Assembly (NCBI RefSeq): GCF_004343775.1
Contig: NZ_PTXL01000006.1
Span: 558,001-622,000 of the forward strand
Reading direction: 5' to 3'
Origin: Burkholderia sp. SRS-46
GTDB taxonomy: Bacteria; Pseudomonadota; Gammaproteobacteria; Burkholderiales; Burkholderiaceae
Length of the DNA stretch: 64,000 nt
In this document: positions 8,884 to 9,227 of the stretch, piece by piece
Layout of the letters: each line of letters starts with the position of its first letter
Position numbering within the stretch: position 1 is the stretch's first letter
Position numbers and translations under genes: made by a program
Notes under the pieces: model-generated
The model's database searches: none
Seen by the model: only the letters and a program-made list of their open reading frames with translations
Told to the model about the DNA's origin: nothing

Positions 8884-8911
8884 TTGACACGCGCACGCAT
8901 CCTGGCATAGA
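8884..8911 (+). promoter_or_regulatory. Candidate promoter of the leuA leader transcript
   Basis: A perfect -35 TTGACA (8884-8889) is followed after 16 bp by CATAGA (8906-8911), a weak -10; a 17-bp spacing gives ATAGAG. The predicted start lies near 8918, only a few bases before the leader peptide ATG at 8921. Confidence 0.6.
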
Positions 8912-8920
8912 GTTGTCGCC

Positions 8921-8995
8921 ATGCGTTCCTTTCAGAACACCCTCCGAATTACCTCCGGCCGCCTAGCGCGGCCGCTATCGCTACGACTAGCCTAA
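8921..8995 (+). CDS. leuL: leuA leader peptide (leucine attenuator)
   Basis: A 24-codon frame encodes a peptide beginning [13 protein letters not shown] and ending [10 protein letters not shown]. It has five leucines in total. Four of them, at codons 15, 19, 21 and 23, use CTA, which is very rare in this GC-rich genome, and they cluster in the last ten codons. That is how a ribosome-stalling leader senses charged tRNA-Leu. There is no Shine-Dalgarno; the predicted transcription start is 2-3 nt upstream, so it would be essentially leaderless. It precedes leuA by 232 bp and overlaps two hairpins. The peptide itself probably has no function beyond regulation. Confidence 0.75.
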
Positions 8996-9070
8996 GGCTT
9001 TCGTAGCGCCGTGTGCTGTCCGCACGGTCCCTCCTCAGCAGTTCCTCGCAGCACCCTTCTCGCAGTTTTT
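8956..9070 (+). promoter_or_regulatory. Candidate leucine attenuator structures upstream of leuA
   Basis: Several inverted repeats follow or overlap the leader frame. CGGCCGC (8956-8962) pairs with GCGGCCG (8968-8974). CGCTACGA (8979-8986) pairs with TCGTAGCG (9001-9008), enclosing AGCC/GGCT around the leader stop. CCGTG (9009-9013) pairs with CACGG (9023-9027). An alternative pairing GTGCTG (9013-9018) with CAGCAC (9049-9054) competes with the last one. A TTTTT run is at 9066-9070, but I do not see a clean stem directly before it, so the terminator form is uncertain. Confidence 0.5.
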
Positions 9071-9227
9071 ACAACCGAAGTCGTCAGCACTCGTCCGTCT
9101 ATCCGTCGGCCGATTCGCGAAGATCATCCGCATCCGCAGCGCGATCAGGCGCCACGGTGCGAGGCAGCGTCAACCGTCGCGCATGCCGCCCGTCTTCGCT
9201 CGCGACTTGAGACCCGAGGTCAAGAAG

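Follow-up and report, generated by a model that had tools for sequence, protein, structure and literature searches.

The leuA2 gene in the window (the whole 64,000-nucleotide stretch of Burkholderia sp. SRS-46 DNA that was analysed) is a stand-alone gene preceded by a leader element, and this element likely encodes a leaderless leader peptide that senses leucine. Judged from its sequence, control of leuA2 by leucine through such a peptide is highly probable. A short, putatively translated ORF lies upstream of this biosynthetic gene and has an excess of codons for leucine, its end product (Table 1); a 24-codon frame with five leucine codons, four of them CTA near its end, had been noted here before, and listing of the codons bore this out, with CTC at codon 8 and CTA at codons 15, 19, 21 and 23. 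The original prediction had also described CTA as rare and had seen no Shine-Dalgarno (SD) sequence before the leader. Both descriptions held: CTA accounted for 0 of the 209 leucine codons in six coding sequences counted from the same genome, and the anti-SD duplex energy was -2.4 kcal/mol upstream of the leader ATG versus -6.6 kcal/mol at leuA, which does have an SD sequence. For leuA itself the most probable start codon is ATG 9228, which is present in 12 of 12 aligned Burkholderia sequences; the alternative, an in-frame ATG at 9183, is missing from two of them (L025 and L026).

Table 1. Features of the leuA2 leader region in the window, and the start of the type 1 leuA leader at locus L082 of the same genome.
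Feature	Position	Strand	Remarks
-35 box TTGACA, perfect	8884-8889	+	First base 37 nt ahead of leader ATG; no mismatch in 79 of the 81 leuA2 regions compared
-10 box TAGAGT	8908-8913	+	18-nt spacer from -35
Predicted transcription start	8918-8921	+	Most likely the A of the ATG or at most 3 nt upstream; from promoter geometry
Leader peptide ORF	8921-8995	+	24 codons; stop TAA 8993-8995; without SD
Four-CTA stretch	8963-8989	+	CTA at 8963-8965, 8975-8977, 8981-8983 and 8987-8989; proposed leucine-sensing codons
Hairpin A	8957-8973	+	Inside ORF, first CTA in loop; predicted
Hairpin B	8979-9008	+	Covers CTA codons 21 and 23 plus stop codon; predicted
Hairpin C (CCGTGTG/CGCACGG)	9009-9027	+	No U-run after it; predicted
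C-rich, G-poor tract	9029-9110	+	82 nt with 33 C and 15 G; putative Rho loading site
leuA (type 2, leuA2), 2-isopropylmalate synthase	9228-10874	+	Matches TIGR00970 (leuA_yeast)
Type 1 leader start	L082:2607-2609	-	CTA-rich leader peptide, predicted to be leaderless

A promoter scan of positions 8600-9400 returned TTGACA-18-TAGAGT as the sole promoter-like match (shuffled sequences gave a mean of 0.1). The -10 box ends 7 nt ahead of the leader ATG, the A of which is base 8 after the box, and transcription usually starts about 7 +/- 1 nt downstream of a -10 box. It had been proposed that transcription starts 2-3 nt before the ATG; a start near the ATG fits this geometry, but the exact offset could equally be 0. 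A leader transcript that is leaderless, or nearly so, is thus predicted with considerable assurance, and with a start at or near the ATG the leader peptide would be translated without an SD sequence.

The leader was compared across 81 leuA2 upstream regions, namely that of the window and those of the best 80 relatives of its leuA (L001-L080), which come from Burkholderia, Paraburkholderia, Caballeronia, Trinickia, Pararobbsia, Massilia and other Oxalobacteraceae, one Castellaniella and some unclassified bins. Because these loci are best matches and hence related, the counts do not represent independent events. An exact TTGACA was found 35-37 nt ahead of the ATG of a Leu-rich ORF in 79 of the 81 regions, and in all 79 the spacer was 17-18 nt and the -10 box ended 6-7 nt ahead of the ATG. 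L066 has TTGACG at 36 nt from its leader ATG, and L078 has no leaderless Leu-rich ORF of this kind. An SD 4-mer was found before 0 of the 80 leaders scored, whereas a classical Rho-independent attenuator has an SD sequence before its leader ORF. CTA made up 334 of 469 leucine codons in the leaders; within the first 500 codons of leuA it made up 3 of 2597. The CTA run passed the test of conservation in related genomes, a test the original prediction had named as able to refute it, and this conservation lends strong support to the reading of a CTA-rich, nearly leaderless leader peptide for leucine. The codon-position signal in the leaders was modest (variability 0.12, 0.08 and 0.17). At the level of sequence and comparison, the ORF, its promoter geometry, the lack of an SD sequence and the enrichment in CTA are well established.

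With 24 codons the ORF is short, and it might be a chance ORF next to a plain leuA promoter. Conservation of the ATG, the CTA-rich ORF and the spacing in 79 of 81 loci makes this extremely improbable, as do the similar build of the second leuA of the genome and the order-wide controls with reverse strands, coding stretches and shuffles for both leuA types (see below). It is also conceivable, though quite improbable, that the leader ORF is real but is translated from a longer transcript, originating at an upstream promoter or by read-through from ybiB, and hence is not leaderless in vivo. In 65 of 78 relatives a ybiB-like gene is found upstream in the same orientation; in the window, where ybiB stops at 8815, no terminator-like site was found between it and the leader, and read-through would yield a transcript with a 5' leader. 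However, no SD sequence would be available for use on such a transcript, and the distance from TTGACA to the ATG stays at 35-37 nt in 79 loci, including those in which ybiB was not found. The leader unit accompanies leuA in the 13 of 78 relatives without a detected upstream ybiB, for two of which (L060 and L077) little upstream sequence was covered.

Folding of the leader RNA (8919-9075) was better than that of shuffled sequences (z -3.4; 2 of 200 shuffles as good), with three hairpins predicted (Table 1). Covariation in hairpins A and B was assessed in an alignment of 55 distinct sequences against 500 shuffles. Together, the two hairpins had 93.8% of alignment cells paired, compared with at most 59.8% when slid, and their covariation score was 0.112 versus 0.067 in shuffles, with 0 of 500 shuffles reaching 0.112. 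One pair in hairpin B, involving the wobble base of codon 22 (an Arg codon in almost every sequence), was changed on both sides in 30 sequences. Double changes were limited to 2 pairs in A and B, a result matched by 46 of 500 shuffles, and pair types were not in excess (328 of 500 shuffles). A stop-codon hairpin of at least 5 pairs was predicted in 73 of 79 leaders, an uncontrolled count. Simulated stalling of a ribosome at CTA 19, 21 or 23 lowered the probability of hairpin B from 0.94 to 0.00, while stalling at CTA 15 left it in place (probability 0.92). Hairpin C was nearly unaffected (0.79 without a stall, 0.77-0.94 with one), and the C-rich tract was hardly more or less open. In these models, therefore, a conserved RNA structure, hairpin B, overlaps the regulatory codons and would be disrupted by a stalled ribosome. 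Folding had been suggested as a check for terminator and antiterminator forms; it revealed the stall-sensitive hairpin B, but no antiterminator or alternative pairing partner appeared in the stall folds, and none was clear in the group folds computed from the stop codon. A large folded domain was also predicted at 9080-9215 of the window in Burkholderia sensu stricto, and its closing stem, AAGTCG/CGACTT, ends just ahead of the leuA SD sequence.

How the leader would act on leuA is less certain. The form of the terminator had been called unclear, and so it proved: a scan of 8600-9400 for intrinsic terminators returned 0 sites (0.2 expected by chance), and no GC hairpin followed by a U-run, as in a classical Rho-independent attenuator, was found before leuA in this interval. 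Among 3000 random 233-nt stretches drawn from the window, 43 had a C-over-G bias at least as strong as that of the tract that follows hairpin C. The 95th percentile of this control was reached at 67 of 79 loci (window included), a level more easily attained by the many other leaders that exceed 233 nt. The lack of an intrinsic terminator, together with a C-rich tract after hairpin C, favours Rho-dependent termination, which we tentatively prefer, from these sequence features, to translational control or some other route. Translational control ranks next and is an unlikely but by no means negligible alternative. In this case the leader would sense leucine but the switch would act on ribosome access at leuA, for example via the domain at 9080-9215. 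The lack of an intrinsic terminator in 8600-9400 is consistent with this alternative; the AAGTCG/CGACTT stem lies just upstream of the leuA GAGG in both the single fold and the Burkholderia group fold, a small GACC/GGTC hairpin covers the GAGG in the single fold, and the actinobacterial LEU element has been proposed to pair with the leuA SD sequence (PMC1262725). The base stem of the LEU element, between Leu codons and leuA SD sequence, finds no support in the window, however: the Leu codons have no advantage over the rest of the leader, since 516 of 1071 control 36-mers pair with the SD sequence as well as, or better than, they do. The Paraburkholderia and Caballeronia group folds also differ in the stretch ahead of leuA. 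More doubtful still is a classical attenuator whose intrinsic terminator escapes the scan. Hairpin C lies directly 3' of hairpin B, a T-run (GCAGTTTTTAC) is present at about 9063-9073, and the type 1 leader contains one terminator-like site (0.6 expected by chance). Yet the T-run lies some 40 nt past hairpin C and the scan of 8600-9400 gave no site; across the leaders, sites were detected in 18 of 79 (an uncontrolled count), all of 5-7 pairs, and 12 of those 18 occupy one other place in Paraburkholderia-type leaders.

With Rho-dependent termination as the preferred reading, we infer the following course of events, from the transcription start and translation of the leader to the leucine response, its sign and the part played by Rho. 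RNA polymerase would start at the leader ATG or within 3 nt of it, and the ribosome translating the leader would meet four rare CTA codons close to the end of the ORF. When leucine is plentiful, it would reach the stop codon and depart, hairpins A, B and C would form, and polymerase would be halted ahead of leuA, the most likely agent being Rho loaded at the C-rich tract. When leucine is short, the ribosome would stall on the CTA codons, formation of hairpin B would be prevented, and leuA would be transcribed.

The distribution of the leader beyond the closest relatives was examined in a sample of 120 genomes of the order, 39 of which have LeuA2 (that of the window included); 29 returned loci besides that of the window were scored for a Leu-rich ORF whose promoter reached 8 or more points out of 12 and whose -10 box ended 5-9 nt before the ATG. 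Sixteen of the 29 loci conformed to this rule and 13 failed. Among the controls, 4 of 580 shuffles conformed, and none of 29 reverse strands or 116 coding stretches. On visual inspection, 11 of the 16 leader peptides carry a GLLLRPAR-like tail. A leader (TTGACC-18-TACGGT-7) is also present at L101, where the contig starts so near the gene that the fixed rule did not pick it up. In a sample of the class, scored by a slightly looser rule, 2 of 20 scored loci had the leader; L171 and L180 (no placing motif) and L181 (a fragment) were left out. By the criteria of this analysis, no comparable leaderless ORF was found before ilvB, leuC or trpE of the same genome or before a third LeuA-like match (L083); trpE has three Trp-containing ORFs upstream with poor promoter scores.

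The same genome encodes a divergent second leuA (type 1), with 30% identity over the shared part. Its leader has the arrangement TTGCGC-17-TATAGT-7-ATG and encodes the peptide MTAFSRLSLLLAGAPLRALSLARLPR with 4 CTA, its leucine codons being, in order, CTC CTC CTT CTA CTA CTA CTA CTG. Across the order, LeuA1 was present in 105 genomes (own included); 30 loci were returned and 26 were scored, the placing motif being missing from L127, L129, L130 and L133. The rule was satisfied by 14 of the 26 (own genome included) and failed by 12; of the controls, 12 of 520 shuffles satisfied it, and none of 26 reverse strands or 104 coding stretches. Visual inspection with relaxed criteria added L125, L134 and L139. 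The design therefore occurs at two divergent genes. In a family-wide set, a promoter score of 8 was reached at 18 of 28 type 1 loci, among them L203 with a poor -10 (an uncontrolled count). In the order-wide type 1 set, the ten leaders from other families were mostly without CTA (seven with none, two with one and one with three), and use of this rare codon therefore seems to be a local refinement. Several features of the type 1 leader count against a close parallel with that of leuA2: its fold was no better than shuffles (z -0.9), its C bias was weak (23 C and 17 G in 60 nt), its promoter fell under the scan threshold, and it holds the terminator-like site mentioned above.

Some relatives have a second small ORF before leuA, which is leucine-rich and contains CTA. 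A narrow motif rule, based on a PIG-, PTG-, AIG- or LIG-type ending, identified it in 13 of 81 loci (L061, L062, L064, L066, L067, L068, L070, L073 and L076-L080) and not in the remaining 68, the window included. It often ends in LPIGCRA or similar, lies downstream of the first leader in 12 of the 13 and stands alone in L078; an SD-like 4- to 5-mer was found in 7 of 13. In several of the folds for Oxalobacteraceae it falls within a long GC hairpin, and it is possibly a second gate in series. A similar second ORF with a longer tail, outside the motif rule, is present in L074, and Paraburkholderia L021-L024 and L028 have a degenerate-looking stretch at the same place.

Leader peptides before leu genes are known from several bacteria. 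Enterobacterial leu leaders encode a Leu leader peptide upstream of leuA with rare CUA codons, which sharpen the attenuator; rare CUA codons are common to these and to the leader in the window, whereas the enterobacterial leaders have an SD sequence and an intrinsic terminator. Positions 8600-9400 of the window gave no Rfam match up to E 5, Leu_leader included. Actinobacterial LeuA is of the TIGR00970 type. The actinobacterial leuA leaders resemble that of the window in having a Leu-rich leader ORF upstream of leuA, although by eye their peptide sequences differ and they belong to a different phylum. They comprise the LEU element (PMC1262725), LeuL1 of Streptomyces lividans (PMC8079986) and cg4015 of Corynebacterium glutamicum (PMC4046766). 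Transcription of LeuL1 is reported to be leaderless and LeuL1 to lack a typical Rho-independent terminator, like the design predicted here. In Sinorhizobium meliloti the trpL RNA begins at the leader-peptide ATG, as predicted in the window and again in a proteobacterium; in contrast, that leader is one for tryptophan, a transcription terminator is described for it, and its RNA and peptide (rnTrpL/peTrpL) are reported to act in trans (PMC7298713). LeuL of Campylobacter jejuni, a 28-aa ORF with 5 rare Leu codons upstream of leuABCD, is likewise a Leu leader ORF with rare Leu codons before leu genes, but it was sought with an upstream ribosome-binding site, and its RNA ends shortly past the stop codon (PMC3847290). 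The claim that leaderlessness is unusual for a leader peptide thus fails in general, in view of S. lividans LeuL1 and S. meliloti trpL, and since leaderless leader peptides lacking intrinsic terminators have been reported for actinobacterial leuA the design is not unprecedented. Leaderless transcripts have also been reported in Burkholderia cenocepacia J2315 by dRNA-seq (PMC4603805) and leaderless transcription in Cupriavidus (PMC7563307); the main text of the former does not mention leu, attenuation or peptide.

No description of the present leuA leader from Betaproteobacteria was found in the open-access literature that was searched; priority is uncertain because a 2004 comparative study of proteobacterial attenuators lay outside that coverage. 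What seems not to have been described, in the literature searched, is the betaproteobacterial breadth of the leader, its occurrence at both leuA genes and the additional leader ORF of relatives. SD-less ribosome-based sensing is already known, for leucine in Actinobacteria and for tryptophan in S. meliloti, and the present data suggest that such sensing of leucine is common in Betaproteobacteria and that one genome has it ahead of two divergent types of leuA. In these leaders nature provides a clean test of whether attenuation is affected by leaderless initiation, and of the way in which leader peptides act where intrinsic terminators are missing; their ORFs are also small ORFs for genome annotation. 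A far-reaching reading, unlikely in its entirety, is that of a widespread betaproteobacterial family of leaderless Leu leader peptides before both leuA isoforms, in which the leaderless start would be part of the sensor (70S initiation at the 5' AUG coupling the initiation state to leucine supply), Rho would provide the stop signal and the second downstream ORF of relatives would act as an extra gate in series.

Two further variants were seen in individual loci. At L094 the leaderless leader of leuA2 itself has an IG-x-RA-type tail. In other genomes such a tail is found on the second ORF, which hints at a relationship between the two leader types. The type 1 upstream regions L204-L206 encode leaderless peptides rich in Ile as well as Leu (MLSxPISILITLVSI...), which suggests possible mixed Ile/Leu sensing in some genera.
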